Positions 2,526 through 12,575 of a stretch of 12,575 bases of DNA are shown one piece after another; position 1 is the first letter of the stretch; each line of letters starts with the position of its first letter. A program made the translations under genes and the position numbers. Below the pieces are notes generated by a model that had not been told where the DNA came from, did no database searches, and worked only from the letters and a program-made list of their open reading frames with translations. Origin of the DNA: Cytophagales bacterium (GTDB lineage Bacteria > Bacteroidota > Bacteroidia > Cytophagales > Cyclobacteriaceae). The DNA lies in the NCBI GenBank assembly GCA_003504855.1, contig DNZD01000307.1:1-12575 (forward strand), read 5' to 3'.

Positions 2526-4091
2526 ATGAGAAATCTCCTCCCCCTCCTTCTCCTTGTTGTCCTTTCCTGCTCCTCCCCTTCATATGACATCATCATCAAA
2601 GGAGGAAAGGTATTGGATGGAACCGGTGCAACAGCCATCAAAGCAGATGTCGCCATTCAAAATGGAATGATTGTTAAGATCGGTGACCTGGGTGCTGCGA
2701 AGGCAACCAAAACAATTGACGCCACAGGCCTGATCGTTTCGCCGGGGTTCATTGACTTGCACGCACACATCGAGCCCATCATGTCTTTGCCCGATGCCGA
2801 AAGCAATGTGAGGCAAGGCGTAACCACAGCCGTGGGCGGCCCGGATGGTGGAGGCCCTATGCCCTTCAAACCTTACCTCGATTCGCTCGATAAGTTCAGA
2901 CTGGGGATCAATGTTGCTTACCTAACTGGACACAACGTTATTCGGTATGCGGTAATGAAAAACGACAACCGCAAGCCGACGCCGGAAGAACTGGAGAAAA
3001 TGAAAGCGCTGGTGAAAGATGCCATGGATGCCGGCGCTTTTGGTATCTCTACCGGACTCAAGTACATGCCTGGAACCTTCTCCGAGACATCCGAGGTCAT
3101 CGAACTTTCCAAAGTGGCCGCTGCGCAGGGTGGTTTCTACACCTCCCATTTGCGCGAAGAAGGGCTTGGTCTGATTGCCGGTGTAAAAGAGGCGATCGTG
3201 ATTGGCAAAGAAGCGAGTATTCCCATCGTACTCACGCACCACAAAGCCATTGGCAAACCCATGTGGGGCAAAAGCGTGGTAACCCTGGGACTGGTTGATT
3301 CCGCACGGGCTGCAGGTATCGACGTGATGATGGATCAGTATCCTTACACAGCCAGCAGCACCGGTTTGTCAGTGCTCATTCCCACCTCAGCGATGGCCGG
3401 GTCATCAGCCGATTTCAAAAAACGCATCGAACGCAAGTCCTTCAAGGACAGTGTACTGGCCGGCATCCGTTTTAATTTACTCAATGACCGCGGCAGCGGA
3501 GATCTAAGATTGATTCAGTTTTCAACCGTGGATTGGGATCCATCCCTGAATGGCAAAACTCTTTATGACTATGCCGCGCTTAAGGGTGTAAAACCCGATG
3601 TGGAGAATGGCGCGAAGCTGGTACTTGAAATGGAATTGAAAGGAAGTGCCAGTTGCATTTTTCACGCCATCAATGAAGACGACGTTCAACGCATCATGAA
3701 ACATCCCTTTGCGATGCATGCTTCGGATGGTGAAACGGTGAAGTTTGGTGTCGCCCATCCCCACCCCCGGGCATATGGCACATTCCCCCGCGTGCTCGGT
3801 CATTACGTTCGCGAATTGAAAGTCATACCCCTTGAAGAGGCTATCCGCAAAATGACTGGTTTGCCAGCCCAACGGCTGGGGCTCACAGACAGAGGGTTGA
3901 TCAGGGAAGGATATGTCGCTGACATTACTTTGTTCAACCCCGAAACCGTGATCGACAAAGCGACCTTTGAACAACCCCATCAGTATCCGGAAGGAATTCC
4001 CTATGTTATTGTCAATGGTGTGATCACGGTTTCCGACGGCCAGATGACTAATGAGCGCGGCGGAAAGGTGTTGCGAAAAAAGAGGCAATGA
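2526..4091 (+). CDS. Lipoprotein N-acyl-D-amino-acid deacylase (D-aminoacylase family amidohydrolase)
   Basis: This 521-residue protein is predicted to hydrolyse N-acyl-D-amino acids to the D-amino acid plus a carboxylate. The N-terminus is a lipoprotein signal (hydrophobic run to VLSC, lipid on Cys15), which places it at the periplasmic face of the inner or outer membrane. An amidohydrolase beta-sandwich (20-70) leads into SPGFIDLHAH (72-81) with the HxH metal motif. TGHNVIRYA (134-142), SHLREEG (207-213; metal His208), LTHHKAIGKPMWGKS (236-250; metal His238 or His239), DQYPYTASSTG (270-280) and HASDGE (398-403; Asp401 as catalytic or metal Asp) are the family blocks. The tail GLIREGYVADITLFNPETV is the usual closing strand of the beta-sandwich. 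Length is normal for the family. The block GVTTAVGGPDGG (98-109) carries Asp107 where classical D-aminoacylase has the metal-ligand Cys. The gene is codirectional with the flavoenzyme but separated from it by repeat arrays. Confidence 0.92.
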   Translation: MRNLLPLLLLVVLSCSSPSYDIIIKGGKVLDGTGATAIKADVAIQNGMIVKIGDLGAAKATKTIDATGLIVSPGFIDLHAHIEPIMSLPDAESNVRQGVTTAVGGPDGGGPMPFKPYLDSLDKFRLGINVAYLTGHNVIRYAVMKNDNRKPTPEELEKMKALVKDAMDAGAFGISTGLKYMPGTFSETSEVIELSKVAAAQGGFYTSHLREEGLGLIAGVKEAIVIGKEASIPIVLTHHKAIGKPMWGKSVVTLGLVDSARAAGIDVMMDQYPYTASSTGLSVLIPTSAMAGSSADFKKRIERKSFKDSVLAGIRFNLLNDRGSGDLRLIQFSTVDWDPSLNGKTLYDYAALKGVKPDVENGAKLVLEMELKGSASCIFHAINEDDVQRIMKHPFAMHASDGETVKFGVAHPHPRAYGTFPRVLGHYVRELKVIPLEEAIRKMTGLPAQRLGLTDRGLIREGYVADITLFNPETVIDKATFEQPHQYPEGIPYVIVNGVITVSDGQMTNERGGKVLRKKRQ

Positions 4092-5358: not shown

Positions 5359-5510
5359 GGTTTAGTTCTACCGGATTTAAACCACCAAACTCACGCCACT
5401 TCAAATTTTCAAATCTTCCAATTTTAAATTACAGGCTTTAGTTCTCGCCATCTTCAAATCATTCAAATTTTCAAATCTTCAAATCTTCAAATTCCCGGTC
5501 TTAGTTCACC
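5359..5510. repeat. Octamer arrays (TTCAAATY) interleaved with three TTTAGTTC-type motifs between convergent genes
   Basis: Two octamer blocks are present. The first (5400-5431) reads TTCAAATT, TTCAAATC, TTCCAATT, TTAAATTA. The second (5453-5493) reads TTCAAATC, a single A, then TTCAAATT, TTCAAATC, TTCAAATC, TTCAAATT. A separate motif recurs three times: GGTTTAGTTCTACC (from 5359), GGCTTTAGTTCTCGCC (from 5434) and GGTCTTAGTTCACC (from 5497). It brackets the octamer blocks at offsets of 75 and 63 bases, so the whole is a composite repeat. The last copy includes the TTA that is the stop codon of the minus-strand gene. Apart from this the 156-base gap (5345-5500) is empty. Confidence 0.8.
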
Positions 5511-6658
5511 TCCAACTCATCTTTCGCCGGCAATTTCGGAAACGGAGCATGCGGCTCGGTCTGATACCAATATACCACGCTTGCAATATCTGATTGTTGC
5601 GGAAGGTATCTTCCATCATAACGCCACCCCAGATCCTGAATGGTCACTTTGAGGTCCGAATCAAACCGGATCGGGTCCGTGATATGCCAGCGATACATCC
5701 CAAAGCGCTGCATCACCTGATAATGTCCATCACCGCGGATTACCTGATGAAGGCCGGCATACGGCGTACAGAATTCGGTGTAGTGTGATTCCTCCACCCC
5801 GGCACTATTCTTTTTGTTTGTGTCAAAATCATAACTGCCGCAGAAGTAATCTTCTGTGCCCGTGCCATTGATGGTGGGATATTCTTTATCACCATCCATG
5901 AAGAACTTAATCTCCCCTTCACCCCACCAGCCATTATTGTGCACACCCCAGGCCATGTAAGTACCCACATATTGCCCTTTGCCTTTGATGTTATCGACCA
6001 GGGTATACACATCCTTGTACTTCACCGGATTGGTACGGCGGAACTGTGCATGGAAATAGGCCGCATCATCAGGAACCTTGGTCAGCGTGTAATCCACCTG
6101 ATAGAACATCCGCACCTTTTCGTGATCGAGGTTTTCGAGGGTGATCCTGCATTTCTTCCGGAACGGCATTACCCAATAACTATTAAATGCGCTACCCGGA
6201 TTCACACATATGGCCAGTGAATTGAGATGGGCATATTGCTCCCATCCCATGCCAAAGAAGTCCCCCAGCGGGGCCTCCACTGACGGTGTCGGTTCATCAT
6301 CCCAATAAATCCGCAAAATGGAAAACCGCCAATGCCCTGTTGGTGTAAGCCAGATGTGTTGCACAGCGCCAGGTCCGGTAATGTCTGCAAGCACGGCCGT
6401 CTTGCCCGGCTCAATCCATATGTAGGGGCTCACCTTCCAGCCCTGACCTAGGTCCTTCGCATTGCGGGACGCCACTCCTTCCTTATCCATTCCTCCTTTG
6501 CCCTTTTCACCCGTCGGGTTCTCGGCACTGATGGATCTGGATTTTGCATCCGATAACCGGAAGAGATTGCCCATGTTGGTACTCAATCCATTGAATCCGC
6601 CATCCTGGGCGCACAACCTGACGCTGATGAGCATTGCAGCAATAAATAGTGTTTTCAT
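5501..6658 (-). CDS. Exported DUF2961 / GH172-family glycosidase
   Basis: This 385-residue protein has a Sec signal peptide (1-17, cleavage likely at LCA|QDG). Blocks typical of DUF2961 follow in order: SRSISAENPTGEKGKGG (40-56), ITGPGAVQHIWLT (93-105), the short strand RIYWDDEPTPSVEAPLGDFF (116-135), the jelly-roll strands to about 250, GEGEIKFFMDGD (246-257), and GTGTEDYF (265-272). DUF2961 is glycoside hydrolase family 172; the characterised member is a difructose-dianhydride-I-forming alpha-D-fructofuranosidase, and other members act on furanose-rich glycans. Glu249 and Glu269 lie in the two blocks that carry the catalytic glutamates of that enzyme; I aligned this by eye. Length is normal for a single-domain member. 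A periplasmic or surface role in furanoside breakdown is inferred. No SusC/SusD pair or other glycan gene is visible nearby. It starts only 37 bases from the plus-strand operon. Confidence 0.88.
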   Translation of the reverse strand: MKTLFIAAMLISVRLCAQDGGFNGLSTNMGNLFRLSDAKSRSISAENPTGEKGKGGMDKEGVASRNAKDLGQGWKVSPYIWIEPGKTAVLADITGPGAVQHIWLTPTGHWRFSILRIYWDDEPTPSVEAPLGDFFGMGWEQYAHLNSLAICVNPGSAFNSYWVMPFRKKCRITLENLDHEKVRMFYQVDYTLTKVPDDAAYFHAQFRRTNPVKYKDVYTLVDNIKGKGQYVGTYMAWGVHNNGWWGEGEIKFFMDGDKEYPTINGTGTEDYFCGSYDFDTNKKNSAGVEESHYTEFCTPYAGLHQVIRGDGHYQVMQRFGMYRWHITDPIRFDSDLKVTIQDLGWRYDGRYLPQQSDIASVVYWYQTEPHAPFPKLPAKDELEVN

Positions 6659-6690: not shown

Positions 6691-6698
6691 TATATTTG
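6691..6698 (+). promoter_or_regulatory. Exact Bacteroidota -7 type box TATATTTG before the TPR-SLOG operon
   Basis: TATATTTG is an exact match to TAnnTTTG. It overlaps the TTG (6696-6698) that is the most upstream possible start of the next gene. No good -33 TTTG is visible 17-23 bases upstream. On the opposite strand TAACTTTC (6685 to 6678) is one base off the same consensus and is well placed for the GH172 gene, so the 37-base divergent gap may hold two overlapping promoters. AAGGAGGT at 6661-6668 looks like a Shine-Dalgarno sequence but is 27 bases from the TTG. Confidence 0.35.
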
Positions 6699-8444
6699 TT
6701 TCTGTCTGACTGCAGCCTGAATCCCACAGAACATATTAACAACTTGTTGAATCAAGGGCGCTACCTGGAAGCGCGTACCCTGACCACCCGGCAATCAGCG
6801 AATTCTTCGGAACTCAGGATAAAGCAATTGCATGCATTGGCACTTTCCAAATCCGGTACCCCACAAGCCGCAGTTGAATTTTTTGAACCCATCTACCACG
6901 AACATCCCGAAGATGCGGAGACGGCCGGTATCATGGGTGGCATCTATAAAGAATTGTTCAGACAAACGCGCCAACAATCTTTTGCCATTCTTTCGCGCGA
7001 TGCCTATCAGAACAATTTTACAATCACAAGAAATTATTACACAGGCATCAATGCAGCCACGATGTCAGCGATCGCCGGCAAATTTCAACGAGGCCGTGAA
7101 CTGGCCCAGGAAGTAATTGCGCTGCTCCCGGAACAACCCGCTGACTTCTGGGAACTGGTGACAAAGGCAGAAGCCGTGTTACTCAACAAAGATCCACGCC
7201 AAGCGGTCTCTTTGTATTATCAGGCGCACCAGCTGGCCGGCCCCGATTGGGGCAAGCTCAACATTGTTTATAATCAGTTGTGGATGCTGAACCACTATCT
7301 GCTGGTGCCAGCCGAAATCCTGAAACTATACAGCCCCCCTACGGTTGCTGTGCTGGTCGGACATATGATCGACAGCCCTACCCGTGCTGTCCCGCGCTTT
7401 CCCGCATCGGTTGAAGGCAAAGTACAGGAGGAACTCAACGCTGTTATCAAGGCCTCCAATATCAAAATCGGATATACGTCCCTTGCCTGTGGAAGTGATA
7501 TAATGTTTGCTGAGGCTGTTCTTGCATCCGGGGGAGAAATCAATCTCTACGTTCCGTTCCGCCAGACGGATTTCATCGAGACGAGCGTCCGCTTTGCAGG
7601 TGAAAGCTGGGTTCAGCGCTTCCATCAATTGGCCGACCACCATTCCGTTCACTTCCTCACCCGCGAAGGATACCTCGGTAATGACGAGCTCTTTTCATTT
7701 CACGGCAGAATACTTTTCGGACTGGCCACTTTGCGGGGAAAACTCTTGCACGCTGAACCTCACCTGGTGACCATCCTGTCTGAACGGGACCGCACCCTCA
7801 AAGAAGGAGGTACGCGAGATCTGCTGAAGCTTTGGCCCTTTCCTAAACACACCCATCACATCGATCCATCCAAATGGTTGCCACTTGCTCCTGCCCAAAA
7901 GGAATCCGCACCTGCGGAAACCGTTCCCGGCGGACAACCCAATCGGTTTGTGGCCTATATGGTTACCCTTTCGTTCAGTGGTCCCATTATGCTGGAAGTA
8001 ACCCATGCCGCCGGTAAAATGCAGGAAGAAACTTTGCAAGAATTAATTGCACTGGAACTTGAACCTGACCGGGTTCGCGCTGGTTTTACGTCATCGCATC
8101 GGGCCATTCGTTTCGCCAAAGACCTCGTACAGCTCATTCATCAGCGTAGCAAGCAGTCCGGATACCGGATTGGATTACATGCGGGTCCCGTTACCATCCA
8201 ACATGTAAATGGAAAAAAGATGATGACGGGTGATCACGCGACGTTATTGAACAAGATCTACGACCTGACCATCGCCGGAAGCATTTGCGCCAGCGAAACG
8301 TTCGCTGCCTCCCTTGCCCTGGATGCCGGCACCTACGGTTTCGTTCAGACCGGTCAGGTACATCTCGGCGAAGAACTGGGTGACCACAACATCTATAGTA
8401 TTGAATGGACGGGCAGCGAGGTTTCACAACATGTGCGCCGATGA
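6696..8444 (+). CDS. TPR/TRAFs-binding-like, SLOG-like and degenerate cyclase-homology signalling protein
   Basis: This is a 582-residue soluble protein with no signal or membrane segment. Residues 10-205 are helical repeats (pairs such as NNLLNQGRYLEARTLTTRQ), resembling TPRs and the MAP3K TRAFs-binding-like region of bacterial signalling proteins. Residues 216-365 look like a Rossmann-type SLOG/LOG nucleotide-binding domain: VAVLVGHMIDSPTRAVPRFP (217-236), then SLACGSDIMFAEA (262-274), YVPF (285-288), and a closing strand HLVTIL (356-361). After a linker with a His cluster (385-388), residues 417-571 follow the class III nucleotide cyclase order: YMVTLSFSG (421-429), DRVRAGFTSSHRAIRFA (458-474), YRIGLHAGPV (490-499), MTGDHATLLNKI (510-521), GSICASETFAA (528-538), HNIYSIEW (564-571). 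The first metal Asp is Ser426, and the usual Asn and Arg of the GDxVN helix are T516 and K520, so a ligand-binding pseudo-cyclase is likely. TTG is the only plausible upstream start; ones further in are possible. First gene of an operon. Confidence 0.8.
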   Translation: MFLSDCSLNPTEHINNLLNQGRYLEARTLTTRQSANSSELRIKQLHALALSKSGTPQAAVEFFEPIYHEHPEDAETAGIMGGIYKELFRQTRQQSFAILSRDAYQNNFTITRNYYTGINAATMSAIAGKFQRGRELAQEVIALLPEQPADFWELVTKAEAVLLNKDPRQAVSLYYQAHQLAGPDWGKLNIVYNQLWMLNHYLLVPAEILKLYSPPTVAVLVGHMIDSPTRAVPRFPASVEGKVQEELNAVIKASNIKIGYTSLACGSDIMFAEAVLASGGEINLYVPFRQTDFIETSVRFAGESWVQRFHQLADHHSVHFLTREGYLGNDELFSFHGRILFGLATLRGKLLHAEPHLVTILSERDRTLKEGGTRDLLKLWPFPKHTHHIDPSKWLPLAPAQKESAPAETVPGGQPNRFVAYMVTLSFSGPIMLEVTHAAGKMQEETLQELIALELEPDRVRAGFTSSHRAIRFAKDLVQLIHQRSKQSGYRIGLHAGPVTIQHVNGKKMMTGDHATLLNKIYDLTIAGSICASETFAASLALDAGTYGFVQTGQVHLGEELGDHNIYSIEWTGSEVSQHVRR

Positions 8445-8896
8445 GAATTCGCATCACACCCGCTTACACCGTTAGTTTTCTGCTGCTCCTCATCGTCATG
8501 ATGGAACTGCACGAATTAGCACACATCACCGTTGGTCGGTGGTTGTGCGGATGCTGGGGACCCAGGGACTTTAATGTCTGGAACCTGTGTGATGGTTGTG
8601 AGTCAACACAACCCCACGCCTGGGTAGCCACTCTTACCGGACCGCTGTTTTCTTTTGTGATCATGTATCTGGGTATCCTGGGACTCCGCTCGACAGATCC
8701 AGTCCGCAAGTCAATCGCATTCTCATTGATCTTTGCCAATATCCCGTTCGGTAGAATCACCACCGTGATGATGGGCGGTGGCGATGAAATGGTGGTGCTG
8801 AGAAGCTTGCTTCCGTCTCTTGACAGGTCATCACAAATTTGGATTGGTAGTGCGCTGCTGCTGATCGTTGGCGTGCCTCCGATCTATAAAGCATAA
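8441..8896 (+). CDS. Small HELAH-motif membrane protein, site-2-protease (M50)-like
   Basis: This 151-residue integral membrane protein starts at ATG 8441, inside the ATGA overlap with the previous stop, which points to translational coupling. An ATG at 8405 is in frame but would lengthen the overlap and add 12 hydrophilic residues. Helix 1 (about 8-30) contains HELAH (24-28), the HExxH zinc signature with its catalytic Glu inside the membrane. Helix 2 (61-82) begins ATLTGPLFSF, resembling the GPxxN element of M50 proteases. ANIPFGRITTVMMGGGDE (99-116) resembles the NxxPxxxxDG motif, with Asp115 as possible third zinc ligand. A last helix spans about 132-148. Four cysteines lie between helices 1 and 2 (C36, C38, C50, C53) and could bind another metal or form disulfides. 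Intramembrane proteolysis is inferred; the protein is smaller than most site-2 proteases and has no PDZ or CBS domain. Confidence 0.75.
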   Translation: MRIRITPAYTVSFLLLLIVMMELHELAHITVGRWLCGCWGPRDFNVWNLCDGCESTQPHAWVATLTGPLFSFVIMYLGILGLRSTDPVRKSIAFSLIFANIPFGRITTVMMGGGDEMVVLRSLLPSLDRSSQIWIGSALLLIVGVPPIYKA

Positions 8897-9124
8897 ATGG
8901 CCGTCAGTAACCGTCGGTCCTGGCTCTATATCCTGGGGTTTATGACCGTGCCTTTAGCGTTCTTGCTGGTGTACACCCTGATCGGACTCAACTCACTGCT
9001 GAAGTCAGGGTTCATGAGTGAACCCTGGATATTGGGCACTCCACTGCTGATTACCCTGCACACGGCAATTGCCGCAGCATGGTTGCTGGTCGTCAGGAAG
9101 AAATTGGGAACCCTCGCCGATTAG
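8897..9124 (+). CDS. Two-helix small membrane protein in the SLOG/M50-like operon
   Basis: This 75-residue protein starts at the base after the previous stop (TAAATG), so it is almost certainly translated with it. Basic residues at 6-7 precede helix 1 (about 9-32, ending LIGLNSLLK). A short loop with FMSEPW follows, then helix 2 (about 43-67), then a basic VRKK segment and a short tail. The positive-inside rule puts both termini in the cytoplasm. I recognise no family. Its position and size suggest a partner subunit, or a regulator or substrate of the HELAH protein. Its last four bases overlap the 3' end of the minus-strand peptidase gene. Confidence 0.7.
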   Translation: MAVSNRRSWLYILGFMTVPLAFLLVYTLIGLNSLLKSGFMSEPWILGTPLLITLHTAIAAAWLLVVRKKLGTLAD

Positions 9125-12100
9125 CGTTGCACCACCAATCGTCCGGTTCTTACCCGTACCTGACCCGGAAGGTTTACTGTAAGCCGATAAACGTATACTC
9201 CTTCAAACAACGGATTTCCAAATGCGTCGGTGGCCGGGAGCACAATGGTATTCGTTCCTGGATGAAGAACCGGTAGATCCGACGCTGAAAGATCACGCAC
9301 CAGACTGCCAGTTGCAGAGAACAGTTGCAACGAGTAATCGGATGGATCAGTAAGGGACTGCAGTTCAACGGTAAACCGGAATAAATCTGATGCCGGGTTG
9401 GGATAAACTGATTTCACGGCAAACCCATGGGTATCTTCCACCACAAAGGAAACTTCATACGGCAAAGGTCCACTGCTGTTGCCACTGCCATCAACGGCCT
9501 GTGCTGAAAGCCGGTACGTGCCTGGTTGCAGGTCTGTTGGATTAATCTCTACCGAAAAATCTGATGACGCCGTAGCCGGGTGCCACTGCACATGGGCTTT
9601 GTCTGAAAAGACAATGCGGCGGTACACGCAGTTCCGGGTACAAGGGTATTGCATAAAAAGGTCTATACCGAGCGTATCCGTTTTCAATCGGAAAGGGTTG
9701 GCGTCGCGAACGCGAATAAGCATGCGTGGGGAAGAAGAAACCACGTCGCCGTTCAATATAGTTCGCCCATCGATCGTAACGTCCAGTACCGGTGGTGTCT
9801 GGTCCCGGTTCACCTGGAGGCGATACTGCAGCGACAAGACGTTATTGTCGTATCCTGGTTCCGGAAGTATGCGGGGGTTCGCAAATACGGTTACATCGTT
9901 GCTCCCGGCCTTACCCAGGGTGGATGTTCGAACGATAAAGTGTGTGGTGTCGGAAGGAGCCGGAGCCTTGATCCGGAACCGATTCACTTCCCGGTTACCT
10001 GCATCGGAGGAAAATATGTCCACCGAAACCGTGATGGAATCCGTAAAGTTGATCGCCGAAAGATTTGCAAAGCCATAGGTCGCCGACCAGGGCTGCCCTT
10101 CCTGCAACACTTCCCCGGATCTTGTTCCATGGTAGGTCAACATCCCTTCTGCCATTGGAGTGTACGAAACCAACCAATGTCGCAAACGAACCGGTGACAA
10201 GTCGATAGAGTCTGCAGAAGAAAGTTTCAAGCGCAGGTATGGATATGTGACGGCACTAATGTCTGTCAGGAGGGTACTACCGCCAACGGCTGTTTTCAAA
10301 GGCGTGGCGTTACCATTGATATCCAACCCCTCCACCGAAACGGAGAATTGGTCCGATGGACCAACATCTTTAAAGTGCTGGGTTAGCTGACTCCAGGCTT
10401 GAGCCGGACCGATGGTCACCGTGGCCATAGACCCGGAAGCCCCCCGGCCCGTAATGGTGCGGCTTGCAGAAAGCGATTGCGCATTGACCGGTGAGGTCGT
10501 TGGCCGGACTACCTTCGCGGCATTGGCCGGTGCCCCTTTCATGCCAAAAATAATAAACGGCTCACCGGGTGAAAGCGTGGACAACTGCCCCGCACCAATA
10601 CCAAGCTGGGTGAGGGCCGTCTTCACATTCGTTGACCACGAGGCATAGCCGGCATCGCCCATCGAATACAAAAGCACCGAGTCACCCGCCTTCACCTGGC
10701 TTATCCACGTCAGCAGATCATTGCTGCCAGTTTCAAGTTCATTCGACAAAAAGTTATTAATCACCTGCGGTGCCCGGCCGCATGCGCGCGGATCGAAGAA
10801 ACTCTCAAAATTAATTCCTGCGTAGGGTGCCGAAGAGAATTTATCAAATGCGATCAGGTTCAGGGAGTTGTTTCTGCATGGTTGCTCCTGCGTTGCAATA
10901 TTCAGTTCATCGCCATTGAGCTTGAGCGAAACGCTGGTAAATGGATTGCCATTCGCAGAACCAAACGTGGTGATATCCAGCGACGAAGTTGTTTGTGGAA
11001 AAACAAGCCTGCGTATCCCCTCGTTCCGTGTCAAACCGGTAAGCGCATTGTCGGCCGTTTGGGCGAAAGACAACTGGGCCCAACCTTCTGCTCCTTGTTT
11101 GATATAGGAAAAGGTACTGACCGTCCAACTGGTGCTTTCTCCTGATAAGGGATTGGCCAATCGCGTGCGCCAGAAATAAGTGGTTGAATCACTCGACAGC
11201 AGACTGATCGATAAACGCGCCAGCACCTTTCCGGTCGCCACCTGCCGCTTCAAATAAGGACTGTCGAAAGTGGCTGCGGTATCTACCTCAACCTGAAAAG
11301 ACCTTGAGGCTGACATGAGATCGGTATGCTGAAACATCAGGTCTACTGCAGACTTGTTAAGTACCGCGTAATTCACCGGAAAGATATTGCGCGTGCCATT
11401 GGTCGGAATAAAAAAGCCAATGGTAGCCTTGTTGTTGGTCTCATTGAGTTCGGGAACTGTGTGTGCCGGGTCCAATTCAATGGTAAAGGCATTTTGTCCG
11501 AACTCTTTATCAGTCCTGCCGCGGTGCACCACATATTGCAATACATCCTGATACATGACAGGTGCATAGGTGGTGTCCTTCACAATGGTTGTATTGTCGC
11601 TAAGGGTCCGCGTGATGCGCACCGTCAACGGTGTTTGTTGCGCACGTCCAAAGTTCCGGACCGTGAAGTTAATAGCAAATGACTTCGACAATGCATTGAC
11701 CGGCTTGCTGTCGAGGCTTTGAACGGACACGGTTCCCGCATTGATTTCGTAATCCGGCGCCGATGCACCAAACAAAGACACAGCTGGATCACCTAGCAGC
11801 ACCATTTGCTGCACTTGCGAAACGGATTGCAAATCAACGCCAGATGAGAGATATCTGATCGCGACCTCCTGCTGTACTTCGCCGATGCCGCGGTGCAGGA
11901 AGGTGGAATCACCATAGGCCACTGAATAAAAAATATCAGAATATTGTTTAAGGGTTGTTGTGAAGCCGAAGGAACTATGCGCAATAAACAGCCTTGCACC
12001 TTTACCCGATGTAAGCATCCAGTCCTCGCCAAATGAAGTTCGGTTAGAAAAGAACTGACCTGCATTACATCCATTGATCAGAAAGCCCGGGTACTTGCCT

Positions 12101-12575
12101 TTGTTATTATAACCTAACTTCGGGTCACTCACATTGCCGATATCAATGTCAATGGTGCCGGGACCTGAGTGACCAAAAAAGGTAATCAGGTTGAGTCCCC
12201 GATTAACCTGGTCCTTGACATTGACCAGTTCAACATTCAGGCTTTGCTTGCCGATGGTTTCAACTTTTCCGCCCAGATAGAATCCCTCGGCTATTGATTT
12301 GAAACCATCGGTATACGAACGAAAAACGGCCGGTTCGCCTTCATGAATCCCTCCGCTGAGGTGCAACAGGTTCTTTCTCCACAGCGCATCAAAGGGCGCA
12401 GCTTCCGTTTCCTTTATCTTGTTAAGGTATCCCGCAACCTGATCGGCAGTGCTTGCAGTCAATCTACCTGTGGGAATTGCAGGCACATGGGGTACGCCGT
12501 TCAAGCCGGCGCTGAAGGCCATATCACTCGCCGGCCATCCTGCCGTGGGTACCAGGTCATGAAAATCCACTGAGG
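9121..12575 (-). CDS. T9SS-secreted C25 (gingipain/PorU2-type) cysteine peptidase with ILEI domain, N-terminus missing
   Basis: The frame is open through the right edge; about 1150 C-terminal residues are visible, numbered here from the GTG codon at 12570. Residues 1-270 are the catalytic part of peptidase family C25: TFFGHSGPG carries His134 (12169-12171), INGCNAG carries Cys168 (12067-12069), and GDPAVSLFG (260-268) is the conserved end of the fold. A CARDB-like beta domain follows (about 278-390, with ELNETNN), then an Fn3-like region (395-490). Residues 540-690 resemble the interleukin-like EMT inducer (ILEI) domain found in many PorU2-annotated proteins. A second CARDB-like domain (808-918, with GYDNNV) and another beta domain precede the type A sorting domain (1052-1149: VYPNPASD, GVYVYRL, GRLVVQR), which directs outer-membrane translocation by the type IX system. 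It may be a secreted protease or a sortase paralogue. Its stop overlaps the stop of the convergent operon by four bases. Confidence 0.9.
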   Translation of the reverse strand, partial: SVDFHDLVPTAGWPASDMAFSAGLNGVPHVPAIPTGRLTASTADQVAGYLNKIKETEAAPFDALWRKNLLHLSGGIHEGEPAVFRSYTDGFKSIAEGFYLGGKVETIGKQSLNVELVNVKDQVNRGLNLITFFGHSGPGTIDIDIGNVSDPKLGYNNKGKYPGFLINGCNAGQFFSNRTSFGEDWMLTSGKGARLFIAHSSFGFTTTLKQYSDIFYSVAYGDSTFLHRGIGEVQQEVAIRYLSSGVDLQSVSQVQQMVLLGDPAVSLFGASAPDYEINAGTVSVQSLDSKPVNALSKSFAINFTVRNFGRAQQTPLTVRITRTLSDNTTIVKDTTYAPVMYQDVLQYVVHRGRTDKEFGQNAFTIELDPAHTVPELNETNNKATIGFFIPTNGTRNIFPVNYAVLNKSAVDLMFQHTDLMSASRSFQVEVDTAATFDSPYLKRQVATGKVLARLSISLLSSDSTTYFWRTRLANPLSGESTSWTVSTFSYIKQGAEGWAQLSFAQTADNALTGLTRNEGIRRLVFPQTTSSLDITTFGSANGNPFTSVSLKLNGDELNIATQEQPCRNNSLNLIAFDKFSSAPYAGINFESFFDPRACGRAPQVINNFLSNELETGSNDLLTWISQVKAGDSVLLYSMGDAGYASWSTNVKTALTQLGIGAGQLSTLSPGEPFIIFGMKGAPANAAKVVRPTTSPVNAQSLSASRTITGRGASGSMATVTIGPAQAWSQLTQHFKDVGPSDQFSVSVEGLDINGNATPLKTAVGGSTLLTDISAVTYPYLRLKLSSADSIDLSPVRLRHWLVSYTPMAEGMLTYHGTRSGEVLQEGQPWSATYGFANLSAINFTDSITVSVDIFSSDAGNREVNRFRIKAPAPSDTTHFIVRTSTLGKAGSNDVTVFANPRILPEPGYDNNVLSLQYRLQVNRDQTPPVLDVTIDGRTILNGDVVSSSPRMLIRVRDANPFRLKTDTLGIDLFMQYPCTRNCVYRRIVFSDKAHVQWHPATASSDFSVEINPTDLQPGTYRLSAQAVDGSGNSSGPLPYEVSFVVEDTHGFAVKSVYPNPASDLFRFTVELQSLTDPSDYSLQLFSATGSLVRDLSASDLPVLHPGTNTIVLPATDAFGNPLFEGVYVYRLTVNLPGQVRVRTGRLVVQR

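Follow-up and report, generated by a model that had tools for sequence, protein, structure and literature searches.

According to parts of PMC9503650, SLOG domains sense or process nucleotide signals, one example being ThsA, which senses a variant of cyclic ADP-ribose (cADPr) in Thoeris, and part of PMC8195603 places the origin of the ASK signalosome in bacterial conflict systems. We analyzed a stretch of 12,575 nucleotides (nt) from a Cytophagales bacterium (contig DNZD01000307.1 of assembly GCA_003504855.1; hereafter, the window), in which a gene for a protein with TPR-S, SLOG-like, and cyclase homology domains (gene 1) is directly followed by a gene for a predicted membrane protein (gene 2). 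TPR-S and the SLOG network were reportedly defined by Burroughs and Aravind in 2020 and by Burroughs et al. in 2015. The closest known counterparts of the TPR part of gene 1 are the TPR-S (PF20308) and MAP3K TRAFs-binding (PF13281, DUF4071) proteins and the central region of animal ASK1. Unlike ASK1-type proteins, however, gene 1 has no kinase domain and instead carries its SLOG-like and degenerate cyclase domains after the TPRs.

Our preferred reading, to which we assign a probability of about 0.4, is that the locus is a two-gene unit in which a nucleotide-sensor-like protein is coupled, in one clade, to a site-2-type membrane protease. The SLOG and/or the degenerate cyclase pocket of gene 1 would bind a nucleotide signal, the TPR-S part would relay it, and the gene-2 membrane protein would act as the output by cleaving or freeing a regulator bound to the membrane. 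If this coupling is true, the locus would encode a nucleotide-gated intramembrane protease and would give the ASK1 scaffold a bacterial relative whose output can be tested. A sequence-only reading of the window had proposed a three-gene operon in which a nucleotide-sensing protein switches a membrane protease formed by the other two products. The architecture of gene 1 and the gene junctions it described were confirmed, while the third gene was not; the proposed switch draws support from the domains of gene 1 and the protease-like gene 2 but loses its third gene, and the pairing on which it relies turned out to be narrow.

Domain architecture of gene 1

The TPR-S profile PF20308 matched gene 1 with 62.6 bits, against a Pfam cut-off of 27.6, and the AlphaFold2 (AF2) model of the protein had a mean predicted local distance difference test score (pLDDT) of 90.4 and a predicted TM-score (pTM) of 0.89. 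This model contains a SLOG Rossmannoid fold, with YpsA as its fold match, and sequence comparison brought out conserved pocket-like motifs in the same domain; compared with the YpsA-like members of the SLOG superfamily, however, the domain is fused between TPR-S and cyclase parts, and no SLOG profile of Pfam or NCBIfam matched it at an E value of ≤1. A cyclase homology fold is likewise present in the model, and a PDB sequence search with gene 1 returned only weak cyclase matches (best E value, 0.013). In contrast to class III nucleotidyl cyclases such as Rv1264 and Rv1900c, the window's protein lacks the catalytic residues, having V, D, T, and K in place of the two metal-binding aspartates and the catalytic asparagine and arginine. 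Both metal-binding aspartates occurred together in none of 59 family members in the alignment used, a family-wide loss that depends on the register, since an alternative register at residue 426 gives serine in the window and aspartate in 32 of the 59 relatives. The combination of TPR, SLOG, and pseudocyclase domains read from the sequence alone was thus borne out by the PF20308 profile, the AF2 model, the fold matches, and the missing catalytic residues.

The annotated TTG start of gene 1 at position 6696 is overlapped by TATATTTG at 6691 to 6698, which fits TAnnTTTG, the consensus of the Bacteroidota −7 element. Judged from the sequence, this start is uncertain, and the true one may lie downstream.

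Extent and family of gene 2

The ATGA overlap between gene 1 and open reading frame (ORF) 2 and the TAAATG junction between ORFs 2 and 3 are both real in the window sequence. ORFs 2 and 3 share one frame, with only a TAA codon between them, whereas each homologue of ORF 2 is one protein, usually 200 to 260 amino acids (aa) long. Together, the two ORFs are colinear with single proteins of about 227 aa; the intact P0121 (227 aa) is identical at 151 of 151 residues of ORF 2 and 74 of 75 of ORF 3, and columns 1 to 152 of the gene-2 family profile fall on ORF 2 and columns 155 to 227 on ORF 3. None of the 62 aligned homologues lacks a residue at the position of the stop. Because of the shared frame and the colinear match to single intact proteins, we regard ORFs 2 and 3, on sequence grounds, as one interrupted gene, which makes the locus a unit of two genes. 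A three-gene operon was therefore rejected, and the supposed small membrane partner corresponds to the C-terminal part of gene 2; what looks like a third gene is the product of a single stop codon and does not warrant annotation as a new small protein.

As written, the window's gene 2 can yield no more than a 151-aa product, in which the protease motifs are retained but the last third is missing, and the copy is therefore either decaying or misread, the TAA reflecting decay or a sequence error. Among gene-2 copies at 49 genome loci, 43 matched 190 or more profile columns in a single frame, one (in locus L016) was cut by a contig end, and five, not at contig ends, were frameshifted or incomplete. 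The ORF caller had overlooked gene 2 in four loci, three of which the profile covers as intact, the fourth (L049) being one of the five broken copies. No other split at the position of the window's stop was seen among the 49 loci.

Gene 2 appears from its sequence to encode a multipass membrane protein. Its Bacteroidota family is unnamed, no Pfam model was found for it, and none of the 18 proteins listed by a search with a distant member has a Pfam domain. H24, E25, and H28 of its HExxH motif are present in 62 of 62 homologues and lie inside a helix (residues 7 to 36) of the structure model. G67 and P68, aligned by hhalign with the AGP of site-2 proteases (S2P), and N100, P102, R105, G112, G114, D115, and E116 are equally invariant. 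HExxH, GP, N-P, and Asp follow in the same order and with close spacing as in the M50 site-2 proteases (mjS2P, 3b4r; SpoIVFB); spacings were counted by hand on P0121, since the motif-spacing script took an earlier GP (in CWGP) in 28 of the 62 proteins. The spacing of N100, P102, and D115 is nevertheless unlike NxxPxxxxDG, and hhalign leaves D115 not exactly on the S2P aspartate. Further differences from M50 proteases are a GxGDE in place of DG and a CxC…CxxC loop, with C36 in 62, C38 in 57, C50 in 61, and C53 in 61 of the 62 homologues. To our knowledge, such a cysteine cluster after the HExxH helix is not usual in site-2 proteases; it may form a metal or redox site.

Profile comparison of the gene-2 family with a 31-row S2P set gave an E value of 5e-4, while M50 sets of 2 to 5 rows gave at best 0.024 over 16 columns, which is uninformative. 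PF02163 and PF13398, the Pfam M50 models, matched none of the 62 members at an E value of ≤1, a PDB sequence search returned no match, no peptidase match in Pfam, PDB, or Foldseek was significant, and comparison of the model with the S2P core fold gave a weak fold score. It is thus moderately supported, by the profile more than by the fold, that the family is a distant relative of the site-2 (M50) zinc proteases: the motifs, their order, and the profile match favor the M50-like protease proposed for this gene, but no Pfam M50 model matches and the fold evidence is weak. The survey has in any case brought out an unnamed membrane family with invariant metal-site-like and cysteine motifs.

Association of genes 1 and 2 and competing explanations

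We counted both genes in the GTDB groups to which the genome of L016 belongs, with thresholds of E ≤ 1e-30 for gene 1 and, for gene 2, E ≤ 1e-5 in the family search and E ≤ 1e-10 in the order search. The family (245 genomes) held gene 1 in 18, gene 2 in 8, and both in 4 genomes, the genus (62 genomes) in 24, 4, and 3, and the order (390 genomes) in 7, 24, and 3, respectively; the two genes adjoined in one genome in each group. In the union of family and genus, which includes many draft genomes and some fragments or partial matches (e.g., G278, G291, and G139), 38 genomes had gene 1; gene 2 adjoined it in one (G001, the genome of L016), lay on another contig in 5, and was absent in 32. From the gene-2 side, a gene-1 relative was found in 1 of 49 loci, within flanks of up to 7 kb, some of them ended by a contig edge. 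Three further pairs of gene-1 and gene-2 proteins come from contigs of matching size (182745, 14863, and 5516), which suggests that they adjoin too. In a 40-row tree of gene 1, the window, L016, and these three pairs fall into one 15-row clade (100/100), outside which lie 20 gene-1 loci without an adjoining gene 2. A general three-part system was rejected, as gene-1 genomes mostly lack gene 2 and gene-2 loci mostly lack gene 1; conserved co-occurrence was not found, and the pairing is at most a lineage-specific variant.

The same 20 loci, chosen for contig size from the gene-1 hits of the family and genus searches and hence not a random sample, carried no gene 2 in the stretches examined. In 7 of them, two large nSTAND1-type nucleoside triphosphatase (NTPase) genes lie upstream of gene 1, with a gene for a 258- to 270-aa protein (6 to 7 predicted transmembrane [TM] helices, no Pfam match) 10 to 85 nt upstream of gene 1, forming a possible conflict or signaling cluster; they represent fewer independent cases because four are near-identical in gene 1. 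In another 4, Reg_prop histidine kinase, REC, and REC-cyclase genes stand beside gene 1, the REC-cyclase immediately upstream by 12 to 26 nt in 3, and such an active cyclase might form a pair with gene 1's degenerate cyclase domain. Pfam was run only on the nSTAND1 pair of L095 (E values, 2.3e-47 and 1.4e-69), and Pfam and PADLOC only on the REC-cyclase of L110, which resembles PADLOC PycC (E value, 6.9e-23); assignments at the other loci come from BLAST clusters and, for the four REC-cyclases, also from their own sequences. The window has neither these NTPases nor a Pycsar-type cyclase and instead has the protease-like gene. Gene 1 would then be a hub with different signaling partners by group, the protease-like gene being that of the window's clade. 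The fuller proposal, a hub that swaps partners between Bacteroidota lineages (nSTAND1 plus 6- to 7-TM protein, two-component/REC-cyclase, or Cys-cluster site-2-type protease) in which a nucleotide signal switches intramembrane proteolysis, we consider rather unlikely. Either way, these neighborhoods provide several intact systems for asking what TPR-S/SLOG proteins sense.

A serious rival, which we hold to be possible if somewhat doubtful, is that genes 1 and 2 are neighbors without shared function, an often-lost, decaying membrane-protein gene having come to lie after gene 1 in a single clade, with the ATGA overlap reflecting co-transcription only. The rarity of adjacency on both sides of the survey, the five copies broken away from contig ends, and the interruption of gene 2 in the window all weigh against a coupled unit. 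So does the ordinary chromosomal look of the gene-1 locus: the amidohydrolase gene at 2526 to 4091 (+) of the window is matched, at 75% identity, by one immediately upstream of gene 1 in L016 and, at 66% identity, by another roughly 6 kb upstream of it in L106, whose 18-kb region has no gene 2, and these counterparts point to a vertically inherited chromosomal place. Mere neighborhood is harder to reconcile with the same-strand order of the two genes in both the window and L016, which belong to different subclades of the 15-row clade, and with the three further pairs on equal-sized contigs. The unit could also be an antiphage or other conflict system in which gene 1 would detect a signal of infection and gene 2 would act on membrane components by damaging or cutting them. 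Parts of PMC9503650 and PMC8195603 treat SLOG and TPR-S domains as members of conflict networks, and gene-1 relatives adjoin the nSTAND1 NTPases and the PycC-like cyclase. We nonetheless consider this quite improbable, as PADLOC matched 0 families to the three ORFs at an E value of ≤1, the 3 loci compared show a syntenic, chromosomal setting, and no phage-borne relative of either gene appeared in two pattern scans of viral contigs, a weak test because the patterns were short and exact.

Other alternatives concern gene 2 itself. Its near-invariant cysteine cluster and the nonsignificant peptidase matches would suit a membrane metal-binding or redox protein in which cluster and HExxH form a metal or thiol switch, but its motifs (HExxH, GP, N-x-P, and Asp) and the order in which they stand follow site-2 proteases, as does the profile match, making a nonprotease very improbable. 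That the split is real, ORFs 2 and 3 giving a two-subunit protease as the sequence-only reading had it, is barely credible: all conserved motifs do lie within ORF 2, and the ATG of ORF 3 immediately follows the stop, but the 62 aligned relatives all run through this point as one protein, P0121 differs by one residue besides the stop, and the 49 loci provided no second case.

Coordinates and flanking genes

Table 1. Positions of gene 1, gene 2, and their parts in the window
Feature	Position	Strand	Basis
Gene 1, TPR-S/SLOG-like/degenerate class III cyclase protein, 582 aa	6696..8444	+	ORF, PF20308 profile, AF2 model, fold matches
TPR superhelix of gene 1, residues 10-199 (PF20308 TPR-S part, residues 23-123)	6723..7292	+	
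SLOG-like Rossmann domain of gene 1, residues 214-395; motifs GHM-D, ACGxD, GGTR	7335..7880	+	
Degenerate class III cyclase homology domain of gene 1, residues 416-571	7941..8408	+	
Gene 2, N-terminal part (ORF 2, 151 codons), putative site-2-protease-like membrane protein	8441..8896	+	
HELAH (HExxH) putative metal-site motif of gene 2, residues 24-28	8510..8524	+	62-protein alignment
Cys cluster C36xC38…C50xxC53 of gene 2, between helices 1 and 2	8546..8599	+	62-protein alignment
GP motif of gene 2, residues 67-68; counterpart of S2P AGP	8639..8644	+	Alignment, hhalign
N-x-P…GxGDE segment of gene 2, residues 100-116; proposed counterpart of S2P NxxP…DG	8738..8788	+	Alignment
In-frame TAA interrupting gene 2 and closing ORF 2	8894..8896	+	
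Gene 2, C-terminal part (ORF 3, 75 codons; third gene of the sequence-only reading)	8897..9124	+	

Searches of NCBIfam and Rfam were uninformative for the unit, and no literature on the gene 1-gene 2 pair was found, which, given the limited coverage, says little. In four loci (L007, L009, L010, and L030), the gene immediately downstream of the gene-2 relative, in the same orientation, encodes a His_kinase; in the first three, a gene for a LytTR response regulator comes next. In the window, the unit is flanked by minus-strand genes at 5501 to 6658 and 9121 to 12570. The latter encodes a C25 (gingipain-type) peptidase (E value, 2.5e-42) with a weak match to a type IX secretion tail (E value, 0.0033, below the cut-off), and it converges with gene 2, overlapping its end by 4 bases.
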